A DNA stretch of 48,907 nucleotides from an uncultured Myxococcales bacterium (GTDB lineage Bacteria; Myxococcota_A; UBA9042), in the NCBI GenBank assembly GCA_903955385.1, contig CAJBNH010000105.1:1-48907 (forward strand). The letters are read 5' to 3'. How positions within the stretch are numbered: position 1 is the stretch's first letter; each line of letters starts with the position of its first letter. Under the pieces are notes generated by a model. That model saw only the letters and a list, made by a program, of their open reading frames with translations, was not told the DNA's origin and made no database searches. The translations under genes were made by a program, and so were the position numbers. Below are positions 19,204-32,549 of the stretch, piece after piece.

Positions 19204-19245
19204 AGCGGCGGTTGCCGATGGGGCGGATTGCCCTCGGAGATGTCC

Positions 19246-19971
19246 ATGGATGAGCGCCCCGGGCCACCCCGAGCGACAGGCTGCTTGACTTGCCGAAACT
19301 GCGGCGAGACCGAGTGGTCCTCGCTGGACAGGGAGGGCCTTGACCTGCTCAACCAGGTCAAGGTCTCGAACACCTATCAACCGGGCCAAGTCATCTTCTA
19401 CCAAGGCAATCCGTGCTTGGGCCTGTACTGCATCGAGTCCGGCGCCGTCGCCGTGCGCATGACGGATCCACACGGCAACTCCGCGATCGTGCGAATGGCC
19501 TGCAGCGGCGAGACCTTGGGCTACCGGGCGTACTTTGCCGGCCAACCGTACCACGCGAGCGCCGATGCCCTGACAGCGACGCGGGTCTGCTTCATCGACA
19601 GGAGTGCGGTGCGACACCTGCTCGACCACAACCCCATGGTCGGCATGGCTTTCTTGAAGCGCATGGCTGAGGATCTGGAGGACGCAGAGGAAGCCAAGCT
19701 CCACTCGATGTCGCTGTCAGTGCGCGCGCGGGTGGCGCACCTGCTGCTGGTGCTGAAGGAGCGTTTCGGTACGGTGGGCGCCGACGGCAGGCTGGTGATC
19801 GAATTGCCGTTGTCACGTCAGGACATGGCCGCAATGGTCGGCACGCGCCCAGAGACGATCGCCCGGGCCGTCCGCAGCCTTGAGGCGCAGAACGTCGCGC
19901 ACTTCACGGGTCGACAGGTCGTGGTGCCAGATCTGGACGCACTGCTGGATTTGATCGAGGTGCAAGTGTAG
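19246..19971 (+). CDS. CRP/FNR-family transcription regulator with N-terminal Cys cluster
   Basis: A 241-residue regulator. The ATG at 19246 has GGAG six bases upstream; in-frame TTG 19228 and ATG 19240 are alternatives. The N-terminus holds C-x2-C-x2-C (CLTCRNC), followed by a cyclic-nucleotide-like beta-roll (YQPGQVIFYQGNPCLGLYCI, then ACSGETLGYRAYFAG), the long dimerisation helix and a winged helix-turn-helix (SRQDMAAMVGTRPETIARAV) whose recognition helix has E-x2-x-R spacing as in FNR. The cysteines (three at the N-terminus, several in the roll) are consistent with a [4Fe-4S] oxygen or redox sensor, but spacing differs from E. coli FNR. A link to the cbb3 oxidase locus further right is plausible but unproven. 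Confidence 0.88.
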   Translation: MDERPGPPRATGCLTCRNCGETEWSSLDREGLDLLNQVKVSNTYQPGQVIFYQGNPCLGLYCIESGAVAVRMTDPHGNSAIVRMACSGETLGYRAYFAGQPYHASADALTATRVCFIDRSAVRHLLDHNPMVGMAFLKRMAEDLEDAEEAKLHSMSLSVRARVAHLLLVLKERFGTVGADGRLVIELPLSRQDMAAMVGTRPETIARAVRSLEAQNVAHFTGRQVVVPDLDALLDLIEVQV

Positions 19972-19982
19972 CGGTTTGGGTG

Positions 19983-20126
19983 TCAGGACACCGCGTCGGC
20001 GGCGGCGACCGGGTCCATCCACATGACCTCCCAGATGTGGCCGTCGGGATCGGCGTAGTTGCGTCCGTACATGAAGCCGTGCTCCTGCGTCGCGTAGAGG
20101 TCCGCCAAGTATTCACCGTGAACCAT
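19983..20126 (-). pseudogene. C-terminal remnant of a VOC/glyoxalase-family gene
   Basis: On the minus strand this stretch translates to about 47 residues ending at a TGA (19983-19985). It contains LADLYATQEHGFMYGRNYAD followed by PDGHIWEVMWMDP. The motif F-M-Y-G-R-x-Y-x-D-P-D-G-H-I-W-E-V is the closing strand region of VOC (vicinal oxygen chelate) proteins, where the Glu is a metal ligand. Complete members have about 120-140 residues. The first half is missing: an in-frame stop lies at 20169-20171, and the sequence beyond is the promoter region of the next + strand operon. It is most simply a gene truncated by deletion or rearrangement. Confidence 0.8.
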
Positions 20127-20191
20127 TTCCGGTGACGCGGAAAATCGAAAAGAAACAATTCCCGTCCCTCACCGCGGGTCATCATTTCCTG

Positions 20192-20220
20192 TTGACCCGA
20201 AGCCGCACGGCCCCTACCGT
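20192..20220 (+). promoter_or_regulatory. Candidate promoter for the 20239-23629 operon
   Basis: TTGACC at 20192-20197 and TACCGT at 20215-20220 are separated by 17 bases, 19 bases before the first possible start codon. It lies next to an A-rich stretch (20139-20160) that is unusual in this GC-rich window. Confidence 0.5.
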
Positions 20221-20238
20221 GGCGGTCAAGTTTGGCGT

Positions 20239-21240
20239 TTGAGGGTGGACAGGCGCCGAGCGGACCGAGATGGCTTTGTGACTCGCGGGGGAACGCAACT
20301 GGCGACTTCAATTCCAGCGCTTTGGGGACTCCCCAAGCGTGCACGACCGTTTGTGACTCTCGTCACGGCGGCGCTGCTGCTTGCGACGTCGAGTGCTGCT
20401 CGCGCAGAGGACAACTACTTCACCGAAACCCATTACGACCTCGGCATCCAGTCGGTGCAGAGCTTGTCGTTCGGTGGCGTCTCTGCGTCGGGAACGGCGG
20501 TGCATCTGACCGAGCACAACGGCCTGATCTCGCGTGTGCCCTACCTCCTGGTGTACATCTTCGGGGTGGCGCAAGCAGGCGGCGATGTCCGGATGGTCAG
20601 CGGCTACAGCGAGAGCTCCAGCGAAAGCCAACTGGACTTCGTGACGGGCAACGGCAAGGTCGTCGACTCCAAGCGCATCATCTCGACCAGCAGGAACCTG
20701 ACCGTCGGGTTCATCCCCCTGACCGAGGAAGAGAAGGCCAGGCGCGATGAGGGCCTGGAGCGGCTCGGCGGGACGATGACCGTGCTCGCCATGCTGACGT
20801 CGCACTTTGACCTGGTGTACCTGCCGAACCGCGACGACGGTCACCTGCGGGGATTTCGGGCGTCGCTGTACCCCCTTGCGATTGGGATCACGCGGTACGC
20901 CGAGATCGCCGTCGGCTACGCGGACACGCGCTTGAAGGTGACGGCCACGGATCCGGCCACCGGCCAGCGACGCAACGTGCAGCATCAAGCGCGGGCCATT
21001 GCGGCGCGTGTGGGTCTGGCCCCGGTGCGCTCGCTCGTGTTGGTCGGGGAGTACGAGGCCAACCTGCAGCGGGCCGACGGCGCAAGCTTCGGCTTCACGG
21101 CCGATTCGACGATCCGGGCCTCAGCTGCGCTGTCGATCCCGTATGTGGAAAGGCTGTTCTGCAAGCTCGCCGCCGAACGTATCGGCCTGGCGAGCAGCGA
21201 CCCGTGGGGCACTTCACTCGAATTCGGGATGCGGTTCTGA
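20239..21240 (+). CDS. Predicted outer-membrane/periplasmic beta-rich protein
   Basis: Up to 333 residues. The start is uncertain: TTG 20239 is the longest, with GTG 20245 and GTG 20278 as alternatives; any of them leads into a signal peptide (FVTLVTAALLLATSSAARA, cleavage predicted after ARA). The mature protein has alternating hydrophobic strands (YAEIAVGYADTRLKVTAT, ARAIAARVGLAPVRSLVLVG, STIRASAALSIPYVERLF) and ends LEFGMRF, with a terminal Phe as in outer-membrane barrels. No family was recognised. It is the first gene of a coupled operon: its TGA overlaps the next ATG by one base. Confidence 0.75.
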   Translation: MRVDRRRADRDGFVTRGGTQLATSIPALWGLPKRARPFVTLVTAALLLATSSAARAEDNYFTETHYDLGIQSVQSLSFGGVSASGTAVHLTEHNGLISRVPYLLVYIFGVAQAGGDVRMVSGYSESSSESQLDFVTGNGKVVDSKRIISTSRNLTVGFIPLTEEEKARRDEGLERLGGTMTVLAMLTSHFDLVYLPNRDDGHLRGFRASLYPLAIGITRYAEIAVGYADTRLKVTATDPATGQRRNVQHQARAIAARVGLAPVRSLVLVGEYEANLQRADGASFGFTADSTIRASAALSIPYVERLFCKLAAERIGLASSDPWGTSLEFGMRF

Positions 21241-21962
21241 TGCGCACTCGTCTTGCCACCCTCGCGGGGATCCTCTGCCTTCTCGGGGCCGAGATCCCCC
21301 ACGCCGCCGCAGAGCCGACAGCGATGCTGCCCGGCGTGATCGAGACGGATCGGCAGTCCAACGTGTACCTGGCGGTCGCCCTCAGCAAGATCGCCTCGGA
21401 CACCCTGGGCGACAACCACGGCAGCCCGCCCGCGAAGTACGACGGCTGGGGCTACGGCATGACCGTGCGCGGCGAGGCCGTCAGCCTGGCCACCCGCTAC
21501 GGCGGCACGTTCGGCGCTACGTTCGACTTCGACTTCTTCCTCGTCACACCTGGTGCGATTGCCGGTCCCGAGGAGCCGGCCGTCTCGTACGTCTTCTTGG
21601 GGTTCACCCCGGCGCTCGCCCTGGGCGTGTTCAAGACCGCGTCCTACTCGCTTGCCTTGGAGCTGGGCGCGCCCCTCAACACCGACTTCTACGGCTTGTC
21701 GGCCGGCGGATTTGGACAAATCGGCTGGATGTACCTGGGGTACCGGATGCGCACCGGCACGGGCTGGCGCGGGCAAGAGGTCCTCGACGAGCGGGTGCGG
21801 TTCGGCCTCGCAGGATTCGACACCGACTACGCCGACAAGACGTTCTTCGGCCTCGAGATCATCGACGGCTACAGCGAAGACGACAAAGGCAATGCCAATC
21901 TCGGGTCGCTGTTCAGGGGAAGCTACACCATGGTCTCCCTGGTTGTGAGCGTCGGCCGATGA
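21240..21962 (+). CDS. Exported beta-rich protein of unknown function
   Basis: A 240-residue protein starting at ATG 21240, sharing one base with the upstream stop. A clear signal peptide (RLATLAGILCLLGAEIPHAAA, about 25 residues with the Met, cleavage after AAA) precedes a Gly/aromatic-rich, strand-like body (TRYGGTFGATFDFDFFLVTP, YVFLGFTPALALGVFKTASY, GQIGWMYLGYRMRTG). It resembles an outer-membrane barrel or a periplasmic beta protein, but no family is recognised. Its stop overlaps the ATG of the FGE-RCC1 gene, so all three genes are translationally coupled and their products probably act together at the cell surface. Confidence 0.75.
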   Translation: MRTRLATLAGILCLLGAEIPHAAAEPTAMLPGVIETDRQSNVYLAVALSKIASDTLGDNHGSPPAKYDGWGYGMTVRGEAVSLATRYGGTFGATFDFDFFLVTPGAIAGPEEPAVSYVFLGFTPALALGVFKTASYSLALELGAPLNTDFYGLSAGGFGQIGWMYLGYRMRTGTGWRGQEVLDERVRFGLAGFDTDYADKTFFGLEIIDGYSEDDKGNANLGSLFRGSYTMVSLVVSVGR

Positions 21963-23629
21963 AGCACCTCGTCTGGCCGCTCCTCATCGTCCTCAGTTCC
22001 TGCATCGTGCCGCAGCATCGGTTCGACCGCGCCGAGGAGTTCGTCGCGCCGCCCCCAGCCGAGCTGGTGGCCTCGGTGAAGATGACGCCGATTCCGGCAG
22101 GCGTGTCGATCCAGGGGAGCAGCCAGGGCCTTGCCAAGCCGCCCCTCTACGAGCCGGGCTACGACAGCCAGCCCGTTCACCGGGTCTACACCTCGGGCTA
22201 CGAAATCTCGACCGAGTGCGTCGCCGACGCGAGCTACGGCGCGTGCGTCATGGCGAATGCCTGCCCGGCCCTGGCATGGGGCGGCAAGGTCGCCGGTGCC
22301 GGGGCAGCGGCCTTCTGCAAGTGGATCGGCATGCGACTGCCGACCGAGGCCGAGCTCGAGCGGGCAGTCCGCGGCGACGCTGGCGCGCCCACCGTGTCGG
22401 TTCCCAGCCCGTGGGGTTTGGCGACGTGCGGCAACGGCACGACGGCGCAGTGGGTGATGGACGACTACCAGTGCGACGCGTACGTCGGGCGCGCCTGGGC
22501 CAACCCGTTGGCAAAAGGGTCCTCGCCCTTGTATCGCCTGTTCTCCTCCGCGTTGGCGGAAAGGTTGCAGCCTGCCGAGGCCTTCAGCTTCCGCTGCGCC
22601 CGAAACGTCGATGCGACGCCCCCGCCGCAACCGCCCAAACTGCCCGTCTGCCAAGGCAATTGCAGCGTCGTCGGCCTGGCGCTGGGCGAGCGCTTCGGCT
22701 GCGCCCTGCGCGGCGACGCCAGCGTGTGGTGTTGGGGCAGCAACGACCGCGGGCAGCTCGGGACCGGTCAGGTCTTCGATGCGATGCCCGCTTCTGCGGC
22801 CCTGCCGGTGGCCGTGACCGACACGGCCGAGATCGGCGTCGGCCTTGCGTTTGCGTGTGCGCGCGGCAACTCCTTCGACGTGCGCTGCTGGGGAGACAAC
22901 CGCGGCGGCCAGATCGGCGGTTCTACCAATCCAAGAGAAGACAAGCCGTTTACCGTGGTCGGCGGCGCGACGCACCTGGCGGTTGCCGGCAACCACGGGT
23001 GCGTCATTCTGCAGAATCAATCGGTGTCGTGTTGGGGCCATGGCGGCGCGGACTCGGGCGGCTTGGGGCCGACCACGGCGACGCCGATCGGGCTCACCGG
23101 CGCCACCGCTCTTGCGGCCAGCGAAACCAGCGACTGCGCGATCGTCGGCTCCACGGTTCGCTGCTGGGGTATGCTGATCGACGACGCCGGACAACTCGCC
23201 TACACCACGGCCGCCGCCGCGCGTGTGTACAACATCGAGGCAAGCGCGATCGCGATCGGCGAGGGCCACTGGTGCGCCGTCGTCGGCAAGCAGGTGCACT
23301 GCTGGGGCAACCGCGGCCATTGGGGTGGTGCCGGGCTGGCGACAACCCCTGAAGTCGTCACGACCGCAACCGTGGTGCCGAGGTTGTTCGCGTCGGGGAC
23401 CAACACCTTGGTGATCGACCCCAGCAATCTGATCCTCGAGGTCAATACGGTGTTCCCCAAGGGCTGGTTCTCAGACGCCCTGGTCGCCGGTCTGGCTCCG
23501 GCAACCGAGGGAGGCGGCTGCACTTCCAGGGATGCCGAAATCCGCTGCTTTGGCATGGAGCGCGGTCAGCTCGGTCGCGGCAACGGCTGCAACCTGGAAC
23601 AAGTGGCCAGTCCTCTGTTGCTGCCGTAG
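21959..23629 (+). CDS. Lipoprotein with a formylglycine-generating-enzyme-like domain and RCC1 repeats
   Basis: A 556-residue protein starting at ATG 21959. The signal LVWPLLIVLSSC ends at a lipobox Cys. Residues ~41-213 resemble the FGE-sulfatase/SUMF1 fold: it opens MTPIPAGVSIQGSS, continues YEISTECVADASYG, has FCKWIGMRLPTEAELERAVR and WVMDDYQCDAY, and ends EAFSFRCARN, the usual closing FRCA. The middle is shorter than in active enzymes, and the copper-binding Cys pair cannot be identified with certainty, so it may be a binding rather than catalytic version. Residues ~225-550 are RCC1-type propeller repeats marked by VWCWGSNDRGQLG, VRCWGDNRGGQIG, VSCWGHGG and VHCWGNRG, with an unusually Cys-rich blade motif. 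It is the last gene of the three-gene operon. Confidence 0.85.
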   Translation: MKHLVWPLLIVLSSCIVPQHRFDRAEEFVAPPPAELVASVKMTPIPAGVSIQGSSQGLAKPPLYEPGYDSQPVHRVYTSGYEISTECVADASYGACVMANACPALAWGGKVAGAGAAAFCKWIGMRLPTEAELERAVRGDAGAPTVSVPSPWGLATCGNGTTAQWVMDDYQCDAYVGRAWANPLAKGSSPLYRLFSSALAERLQPAEAFSFRCARNVDATPPPQPPKLPVCQGNCSVVGLALGERFGCALRGDASVWCWGSNDRGQLGTGQVFDAMPASAALPVAVTDTAEIGVGLAFACARGNSFDVRCWGDNRGGQIGGSTNPREDKPFTVVGGATHLAVAGNHGCVILQNQSVSCWGHGGADSGGLGPTTATPIGLTGATALAASETSDCAIVGSTVRCWGMLIDDAGQLAYTTAAAARVYNIEASAIAIGEGHWCAVVGKQVHCWGNRGHWGGAGLATTPEVVTTATVVPRLFASGTNTLVIDPSNLILEVNTVFPKGWFSDALVAGLAPATEGGGCTSRDAEIRCFGMERGQLGRGNGCNLEQVASPLLLP

Positions 23630-23907
23630 CCCGTGCGGCGGTTCCCGAGCTCGACCCGGGTTCTCGAACGCCAGACGCCGAGACCGGGGCCTGGCACCCC
23701 TCGCAAAGAACACGCTGCCCCTACGCCGACATGCGAGCGTCGCAACCCGGACCGAACTTGAGGTTTGGCGTGCCAGTACCCATGACGGTCAGCCGGGCCG
23801 CAACTGGTCTCCGCGACGGCGCATCTTTCCGGAATGTTGCCAAGCAGGTTCTGAGCAGTTCGGACGTCCAACCTGCTGAGACGCTCGCACCGCAGCCCCA
23901 CCGCCAC
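23630..23907. other. Intergenic stretch without a recognisable gene
   Basis: This 278-base gap separates the convergent FGE-RCC1 gene and ccoS. Overlapping open frames exist on both strands but have no ribosome binding site, no family motif and a composition like a shadow. No clear terminator hairpin with a T-run was found. Confidence 0.6.
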
Positions 23908-24117
23908 CTACCCCTCCCCTGCCCCCGACTCCGGCTTCGCAAGCGCCGCCACGTCCTCCGGTGGCCGCGCCTTGGTCTCTGTGTCATCCAGCAGCATCCG
24001 CAACCCTGGCGTCTTCAAGTCGTCGAACTGCCCATGCCGCACCGACCACAGAAACGCGCCCACCGCCGCAGACACGATCAACAACGCCAGCGGAATCACC
24101 AGGAAGAGCACAGACAT
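23908..24117 (-). CDS. ccoS: cbb3 oxidase maturation protein CcoS
   Basis: A 69-residue membrane protein. The N-terminal helix (SVLFLVIPLALLIVSAAVGAF) is followed by the CcoS hallmark LWSVRHGQFDDLKTPG and the LLDD segment, then a short variable tail. CcoS is needed for cofactor insertion into cbb3 oxidases. Its ATG directly follows the TAG of ccoI with no gap, so it is the last gene of the cbb3 operon. Confidence 0.95.
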   Translation of the reverse strand: MSVLFLVIPLALLIVSAAVGAFLWSVRHGQFDDLKTPGLRMLLDDTETKARPPEDVAALAKPESGAGEG

Positions 24118-30155: not shown

Positions 30156-32549
30156 CTAAGGTTGCGCGGGTGGCACGACTGCGGGAGCCGGAGCAGCCCC
30201 CGCCTCGGCAGCCGTCGGTGTCACGGCAGCGGCGGCTTCAGGGGCCGCAACCGGCGTGGCATCGGCGGCCGGAGCCACGGCAGGCGCAGCGGCAGCAGCG
30301 GCGTCGGCAGCGGCCTTCTTGGCAGCAGCCTCAGCAGCGGCGGCCTCAGCAGCCGGACGACCGATGTCGACGCCAAGACGCTGCAAGTACGCAACCAGCG
30401 CCACGATCTTCTTGGTCTCCAGTCCCGGCTGGCCGCCTTCGGCCACGATGCTGTCGGCAATCGCCTTGGCCTGCGCGCGCGCAAGCTCTTCGGCGTTGTT
30501 CATGTCCTTGTTCAGGATTCCGCCGTAGGGAACGCCCAGCATGACCATCGCGTTGACGCGCGACTGGATGCCGGCGAAGTCGAGGTCCTCGGTCAGCAGC
30601 CACGGGAACGGCGGCATGATCGACCGCGGCGTCATGGCCGACGGCTCGTTCATGTGCTTGACATGCCACAGGTCTGAACGCCGGGTACGGTACGGGGTGC
30701 TGGTGCCTTCGCGGGCGAGATCCGGTCCGATGCGGCGCGAGCCCCACTGGAACGGATGGTCGTACACGAACTCGCCGGGCTTGCTGTACTCGCCAAAGCG
30801 CTCGGTCTCGGCGCGAATCGGGCGGACCATCTGCGAGTGGCAGTTGTAGCAGCCCTCGGCCAGGTAGATGTCGCGACCAGCAAGTTCAAGGGGCGTGTAC
30901 GGCTGGACGGCGGCGATGGTGGGGATGTTGGCCTTGACCAGGAAGGTCGGAACGATCTCGAACAGCGACGCAATCAGGACGGCGATGGTCGTCAGGACCG
31001 TGAACTTGAACGCCTTTCCCTCCCACGCGCGGTGGAAGTCCATGCGAACGAAGCTGGACCAAGCGGACTGGCCGGCGGTGCCGTGCGAGTCGTGCGAGTC
31101 GGTCTTGGCAAGGGCAGGAGCCTCAGCCGCCGAGTCGGCGTACTGCGCGGGACGGGCCTTCCACGTCATGTAGAAGTTCACGCAGGCGAGGATGACGCCC
31201 GTCAGGTACAGCGTGCCGCCGACGACGCGCACGATGTACATGGGCATCAGACGCATGACGGTCTCGACGAAGTCGGGATACGCAAGGCGCCCCGTCGAGT
31301 CGAATGCGCGCCACATCAGGCCCTGGGTGATGCCGGCGGTGTAGATCGAGACGATGTACAGCAGGATGCCGATGGTGCCGATCCAGAAGTGGACTTCCGC
31401 CAGCTTGCGGCTCCACAGCGGGGTCTGGAACAGGCGGGGCAGCAGCCAGTACAGCATGCCGAACGCCATGAAGCCGTTCCATCCAAGGGTGCCGGAGTGG
31501 ACGTGGGCGATGGTCCAGTCGGTGTAGTGCGACAGCGAGTTGATGCTCTTGATCGAGAGCATCGGGCCCTCGAACGTCGACATGCCGTAGAAGGTGATGG
31601 CGACGACGAAGAACTTCAGTACCGGATCTTCCGCGACCTTGTTCCACGCGCCACGCAGGGTCAGCAGGCCGTTGATCATGCCGCCCCACGAGGGCATCCA
31701 CAGCATGACGGAGAACAGCATGCCCAGCGTCGAGGCCCACTCGGGCAGCGCGGTGTAGTGCAGGTGGTGGGGGCCGGCCCAGATGTACATGAACACAAGC
31801 GACCAGAAGTGCAGGATCGACAGCCGGTAGGAAAACACCGGTCGATTCGCGGCCTTGGGCAGGAAGTAGTACATCATGCCCAGGAACGGCGTCGTCAGCA
31901 CGAAGGCCACGGCGTTGTGTCCGTACCACCACTGCATGAACGCGTCCTGCACGCCCGCGTACAGCGAATAGCTGCGCAGGAACGTCGCAGGAACCGACAA
32001 GTTGTTGAAGATGTGCAGGATCGCCACCGTCACGACGCTGGCCACGTAGAACCAGATGGCAACGTAGAGGTGACGCTCTCGGCGCTTGGCGATGGTGCCG
32101 AAGAAGTTGATGGCGAAAACCACCCACACCAAGGCGATCAGGATGTCGATCGGCCACTCGAGCTCTGCGTATTCCTTGCCCTGCGTGATGCCCAACGGCA
32201 GCGTGACCGCGGCGGCGACGATGATCAGCTGCCAACCCCAGAAGTGGATGGCGCTGAGCGTGTCGCTGAACATGCGGGCCTTCAACAGCCGCTGCGACGA
32301 GTAATAGACGCCTGCGAACACGGCGTTGCAGGCGAACGCAAAGATCACCGCGTTCGTGTGCAGCGGGCGCAGTCGGCCAAAGTGGAACCAGCCGATGTTC
32401 AGCTGGGGCCAGGCAAGCTGGGCCGCGATCCAGACGCCGACCAACATGCCCACGACCGCCCATAGCACCATGGCGAACGTGAACTTGCGGACGATGGCGT
32501 CGTCATAGACGAACTTCTCGATGGGACTACCCGTCGTGGACGTGGTCAC
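30156..32549 (-). CDS. ccoNO: Fused cbb3 oxidase catalytic subunits CcoN-CcoO
   Basis: A 797-residue chain. Residues 1-~465 are CcoN, the haem-copper catalytic subunit: it shows RPLHTNAVIFAF (low-spin haem ligand), WWYGHNAVAF and GPHHLHYTALP (CuB ligands), and TDWTIAHVHSGTLGW (haem ligands). A ~45-residue His/Ser/Asp-rich linker leads to a membrane helix and CcoO (~510-725), with haem c motif CYNCH at 567-571 and the following SQMVRPIRAETERFGEYS. The last ~70 residues are Ala/Pro low-complexity (AAAEAAAKKAAADAAAAAAP) of unknown use. The start is GTG 32549 with AGGAG eight bases upstream. ccoN and ccoO are normally separate genes; this fusion fixes their ratio. Confidence 0.96.
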   Translation of the reverse strand: MTTSTTGSPIEKFVYDDAIVRKFTFAMVLWAVVGMLVGVWIAAQLAWPQLNIGWFHFGRLRPLHTNAVIFAFACNAVFAGVYYSSQRLLKARMFSDTLSAIHFWGWQLIIVAAAVTLPLGITQGKEYAELEWPIDILIALVWVVFAINFFGTIAKRRERHLYVAIWFYVASVVTVAILHIFNNLSVPATFLRSYSLYAGVQDAFMQWWYGHNAVAFVLTTPFLGMMYYFLPKAANRPVFSYRLSILHFWSLVFMYIWAGPHHLHYTALPEWASTLGMLFSVMLWMPSWGGMINGLLTLRGAWNKVAEDPVLKFFVVAITFYGMSTFEGPMLSIKSINSLSHYTDWTIAHVHSGTLGWNGFMAFGMLYWLLPRLFQTPLWSRKLAEVHFWIGTIGILLYIVSIYTAGITQGLMWRAFDSTGRLAYPDFVETVMRLMPMYIVRVVGGTLYLTGVILACVNFYMTWKARPAQYADSAAEAPALAKTDSHDSHGTAGQSAWSSFVRMDFHRAWEGKAFKFTVLTTIAVLIASLFEIVPTFLVKANIPTIAAVQPYTPLELAGRDIYLAEGCYNCHSQMVRPIRAETERFGEYSKPGEFVYDHPFQWGSRRIGPDLAREGTSTPYRTRRSDLWHVKHMNEPSAMTPRSIMPPFPWLLTEDLDFAGIQSRVNAMVMLGVPYGGILNKDMNNAEELARAQAKAIADSIVAEGGQPGLETKKIVALVAYLQRLGVDIGRPAAEAAAAEAAAKKAAADAAAAAAPAVAPAADATPVAAPEAAAAVTPTAAEAGAAPAPAVVPPAQP

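Follow-up and report, generated by a model that had tools for sequence, protein, structure and literature searches.

A set of three overlapping genes in an uncultured Myxococcales bacterium raises the question of whether a predicted lipoprotein, in which a domain resembling the formylglycine-generating enzyme (FGE) is joined to RCC1 repeats, acts together with the products of the two genes translated ahead of it, and how these genes came to their present position. The window analysed here is the whole stretch of 48,907 nucleotides corresponding to contig C105 of a 5.3 Mb genome comprising 201 contigs. The genes, referred to as genes 1–3, and the features flanking them are listed in Table 1.

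Table 1. Features of the three-gene locus and its surroundings (positions in the window)
Feature	Position	Strand	Evidence
Crp/Fnr-family regulator, upstream neighbour, N-terminal Cys cluster CxxCxxC	19228..19971	+	Pfam cNMP_binding and HTH_Crp_2
About 3.94 kb segment (VOC fragment and three-gene operon)	19972..23907		Missing from the fnr–ccoS junction of a related genus
Disrupted VOC-family (glyoxalase-like) gene, C-terminal fragment	19983..20168	-	61 open codons; tblastn matches to 'VOC family protein', best E 3e-9
Gene 1, orphan with export-like N-terminus, probable outer-membrane beta protein	20278..21240	+	Coding score; signal-like N-terminus; C-terminal GTSLEFGMRF
Gene 2, orphan with export-like N-terminus, putative periplasmic or outer-membrane beta protein	21240..21962	+	Coding score; signal-like N-terminus; TGATG overlap with gene 1
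Gene 3, predicted lipoprotein with reduced FGE-like domain and Cys-paired RCC1 repeats	21959..23629	+	Lipobox VLSSC; PF03781, PF13540, PF00415
ccoS (cbb3 oxidase assembly), downstream neighbour, convergent with the operon	23908..24117	-	69-aa ORF, with a similar ORF at this place in a related genome, next to ccoI

Operon layout and the two orphan genes

The preliminary description of this locus proposed that the three consecutive genes overlap at TGATG and ATGA junctions. Both overlaps were confirmed, the first at 21238–21242 between genes 1 and 2, and the second at 21959–21962 between genes 2 and 3. All three frames are also backed by codon statistics: with the neighbouring genes as a training set, the codon-usage score of the annotated frame was 0.23, 0.18, and 0.14 for genes 1, 2, and 3, respectively, and did not exceed 0.075 in other frames. 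The GC content of third codon positions (GC3) is 0.85–0.88, and the operon resembles the host in both its composition and its codon usage. A sigma-70 scan, which covers one promoter type, revealed no promoter-like site for the operon, and the FNR-type site TTGA-N6-TCAA is absent from the window. An exact CRP-like palindrome, TGTGACTCTCGTCACG, is present at 20352–20367, but it was dropped as a candidate regulatory site, since 0.37 exact matches are expected by chance in the window and the palindrome also overlaps one of the candidate starts of gene 1.

Three start codons can be considered for gene 1, TTG at 20239, GTG at 20278, and GTG at 20353; the region 20278–20349 has a non-coding appearance (GC3 of 0.50), which makes the GTG at 20353 a possible start. 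By inspection, and allowing for this uncertainty, the N-terminus of gene 1 is signal-like, with ALLLATSSAARA preceding EDN. Its C-terminus, GTSLEFGMRF, is an alternating hydrophobic stretch with a terminal Phe, a pattern which we take to be similar to the outer-membrane beta-signal, and the sequence suggests that the product is probably an outer-membrane barrel. Gene 2 encodes a Gly- and aromatic-rich protein, the mature part of which contains no Cys; its N-terminus is likewise signal-like by inspection (LLGAEIPHAAA preceding EPT), while its C-terminus, VSLVVSVGR, lacks a terminal aromatic residue, unlike the beta-signal-like end of gene 1.

For neither gene was a homologue found in Pfam above cutoff, NCBIfam, PDB sequences, or plasmids, and no convincing one was found among 379 genomes of the phylum. 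A weak match of gene 1 in genome G171 (E 2e-4) was rejected, as it falls in a protein read as radical-SAM-like, and so were weak matches of gene 2 (E 0.002–0.007), which involved short and varying parts of the query, with stop codons in some. The amphipathic-strand index, a weak statistic, gave z values of 1.2 for gene 1 and 2.1 for gene 2 relative to shuffled sequences, and AlphaFold2 single-sequence models were unusable (pLDDT of 34 and 31, respectively). The two proteins had been described as outer-membrane or periplasmic beta proteins of no recognised family; their export-like N-termini and the lack of a family match agree with this, whereas their beta-rich nature is presumed.

Domain structure of gene 3

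The N-terminus of gene 3, MKHLVWPLLIVLSSC, fits a lipobox by inspection and is followed by an FGE-like domain at approximately residues 40–216 and an RCC1 domain at approximately residues 232–556. The PF03781 match scores 34.7 bits against a cutoff of 23.3, with only profile positions 98–126 of 255 (29 positions) being aligned, and the RCC1 repeats match PF13540 (38.9 bits, cutoff 22) and PF00415 (27.3 bits, cutoff 21.7). These matches bear out the original view of gene 3 as a lipoprotein combining an FGE-like domain with Cys-containing RCC1 repeats.

A paralogue encoded on another contig of the same genome, C197 (L044, G000:C197, 21-3368), provides a reference for the FGE-like domain. It is a lipoprotein with a Cys-rich N-terminus, a full-length FGE-like domain (PF03781, 176 bits) in which the Cys pair is absent, and RCC1 repeats with seven PF13540 stretches. 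Alignment to this paralogue indicates that gene 3 has kept the core FGE motifs RLPTEAE and FRCA(R) and has lost about 60 residues around the mid-domain and the RGGS region. The segment aligned with the copper-Cys/RGGS region reads AKGSSPLYRLFSSALAER and contains no Cys, so the copper-binding pair is absent. The domain is thus indeed shortened, as had been supposed, and without the Cys pair and about 60 residues it is no canonical FGE enzyme. An RGGS-type anchor, which allows scoring, is present in 16 of the 41 distinct FGE-like segments gathered from this genome and its relatives, the other 25 not being scorable in this way; none of the 16 has two Cys in the stretch after the anchor. Judging from these sequences, it seems common in this class for FGE-like domains to be non-catalytic, and if so, automatic annotations as 'formylglycine-generating enzyme' would be misleading there.

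By inspection, the RCC1 domain comprises about seven blades, spanning residues 237–556, and its relatives among solved structures include HERC2, UVR8, and RCC1. A pair of Cys residues 9–10 residues apart occurs in six of the seven blades, and the degenerate sixth blade has lost both. This joint retention or loss in each blade would be predicted if the Cys pairs of an exported protein formed disulfides within the blades.

Distribution and insertion site

The three-gene order was found in this genome only among the 379 phylum genomes searched, and the conservation in other genomes that would speak for a joint system was not observed. No full-length relative of gene 3 was found in these genomes, where all of the matches listed, apart from gene 3 itself, fell on the RCC1 part, and a scan of the species genomes with peptide patterns from the FGE part identified no relative. 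At the same time, both FGE-like and RCC1 proteins are plentiful in the class, the latter throughout the phylum as well, and the order of an FGE-like domain followed by RCC1 repeats also occurs in the C197 protein and in a protein of another genus (G020:C325, L154), with the two partner genes absent in both cases; no OMP-like gene pair was seen beside the fusion gene on the short contig C197. According to the preliminary description, orthologues occurring without the partners would make a joint surface system unlikely. These fusions come close to that situation, but they are paralogues or architectural homologues rather than orthologues of gene 3.

The operon lies between an fnr-like gene and ccoS. 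The best NCBIfam match of the former is FnrL, below its cutoff; its orthologues within the family are at most 70% identical, and the closest ones among named genomes belong to MAGs labelled as uncultured Myxococcales, Deltaproteobacteria, Proteobacteria, Acidobacteria, and Myxococcota. In a genome of a related genus (G016, L131; L143, a contig of a named MAG, has the same layout), the TAA stop codon of fnr directly abuts the stop of ccoS, end to end; the other relatives checked do not show such a junction of fnr with the cco genes. The VOC-family fragment at the left edge of the intervening segment has no Pfam match, and an intact copy was not found in this genome. The stop-to-stop arrangement in G016 and the broken VOC gene at the edge fit an insertion at this site. 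Acquisition of the segment by insertion would be the simpler reading of this comparison with one related genome carrying an empty site, the other reading being a loss in the relative. A search for direct and inverted repeats revealed no clear mobile-element ends in the insert. Farther along the window, an ORF of 797 aa on the minus strand (30156–32549) matches both COX1 (CcoN) and FixO (CcoO), and ccoN and ccoO appear to be fused in it.

Possible roles and comparison with known systems

The explanation that we consider best, although its chances of being correct are about even, is that genes 1–3 form a lineage-specific outer-membrane module, in which gene 3 would supply a lipoprotein for docking or ligand binding and genes 1 and 2 its envelope partners. 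The operon would probably have been acquired through an insertion that separated fnr from ccoS, and translational coupling through the TGATG and ATGA overlaps would ensure matched synthesis of the three products. Genes 1 and 2 would encode exported beta-rich proteins, the former probably a barrel in the outer membrane, in which or at which the products of all three genes are presumed to reside. In gene 3, the degenerate FGE fold could serve as a docking module and the predicted RCC1 propeller, presumably stabilised by disulfides, could offer a binding face, with a presumed ligand-binding or adhesive role. It is the translational coupling that suggests a physical partnership of the three proteins, and a docking or binding lipoprotein facing the surface or the periplasm is proposed by analogy with PorK and BLIP-II. 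The failure to find orthologues of genes 1 and 2, the weak strand statistic, the absence of a C-terminal aromatic residue in gene 2, and the partnerless FGE-RCC1 fusions count against such a module. The preliminary description did not recognise the combination as a described system, and no match to one was found here. One could go further and envisage an undescribed envelope complex in which two orphan outer-membrane proteins display or translocate the lipoprotein, the pseudo-FGE domain docks to them, and the propeller binds an external ligand; we regard this as unlikely.

The partnerless fusions, together with the abundance of FGE-like and RCC1 proteins in the class and phylum, respectively, speak instead for three exported proteins, each useful on its own, that share no more than a transcript; gene 3 would be one of many modular FGE/RCC1 lipoproteins of the class, acting alone, and genes 1 and 2 would be fast-evolving envelope proteins. 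This is a possibility to be taken seriously, albeit a somewhat doubtful one, as two successive start/stop overlaps favour selection for matched synthesis. It is improbable that the locus is a decaying mobile insertion with genes 1–3 as unexpressed remnants: the truncated VOC gene and the lack of a promoter-like site would be in line with decay, but the three coupled frames are intact, with host-like GC3 and codon scores, and the promoter scan covers the sigma-70 type only. Least credible of all is a catalytic FGE-like domain in gene 3, performing formylglycine generation or a sulfoxide-synthase-like reaction and acting on, or together with, the products of genes 1 and 2. Besides the PF03781 match, it could be based on weak NCBIfam matches to SenA and EgtB, but these reach 25–26 bits against cutoffs of 360–420, the copper-Cys region has no Cys, the RGGS segment and the mid-domain are missing, and the Pfam alignment is confined to 29 positions.

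Returning to the module reading, its components can be compared with several known proteins. Gene 3 shares its core motifs with FGE (SUMF1 and bacterial FGE) and differs from it in the missing copper-Cys pair and residues. The fusions on C197 and G020:C325 share with gene 3 the order of the domains, the FGE-like one first and the Cys-containing RCC1 repeats second, although the C197 protein is distinguished by its Cys-rich N-terminal region and full-length FGE-like domain. An RCC1 repeat protein is present in outer-membrane vesicles of M. xanthus (PMC4158809), and BLIP-II is a secreted binding protein with an RCC1-fold propeller (PMC9218822); however, BLIP-II is a free inhibitor, whereas gene 3 has a predicted membrane anchor and combines its RCC1 repeats with an FGE-like domain. 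As regards the type IX secretion system (T9SS), genes 1 and 2 match no family, including its core partners PorL, PorM, and PorN, and PorK matched the C197 paralogue and was not among the matches of gene 3. RCC1 repeats are not described for PorK in the available text of the source (PMC12421860), the FGE-like domain of gene 3 is shorter, and the two proteins come from different phyla. PorK, according to the same text, is an FGE-like lipoprotein without the two catalytic cysteines that acts as an assembly hub in the T9SS, and gene 3 is similar to PorK/GldK, at the sequence level, as a predicted lipoprotein having an FGE-like fold devoid of catalytic cysteines. Gene 3 would represent a further case of this fold without its catalytic cysteines, fused here to a predicted RCC1 propeller on a predicted lipoprotein and coupled to orphan, putatively envelope proteins.
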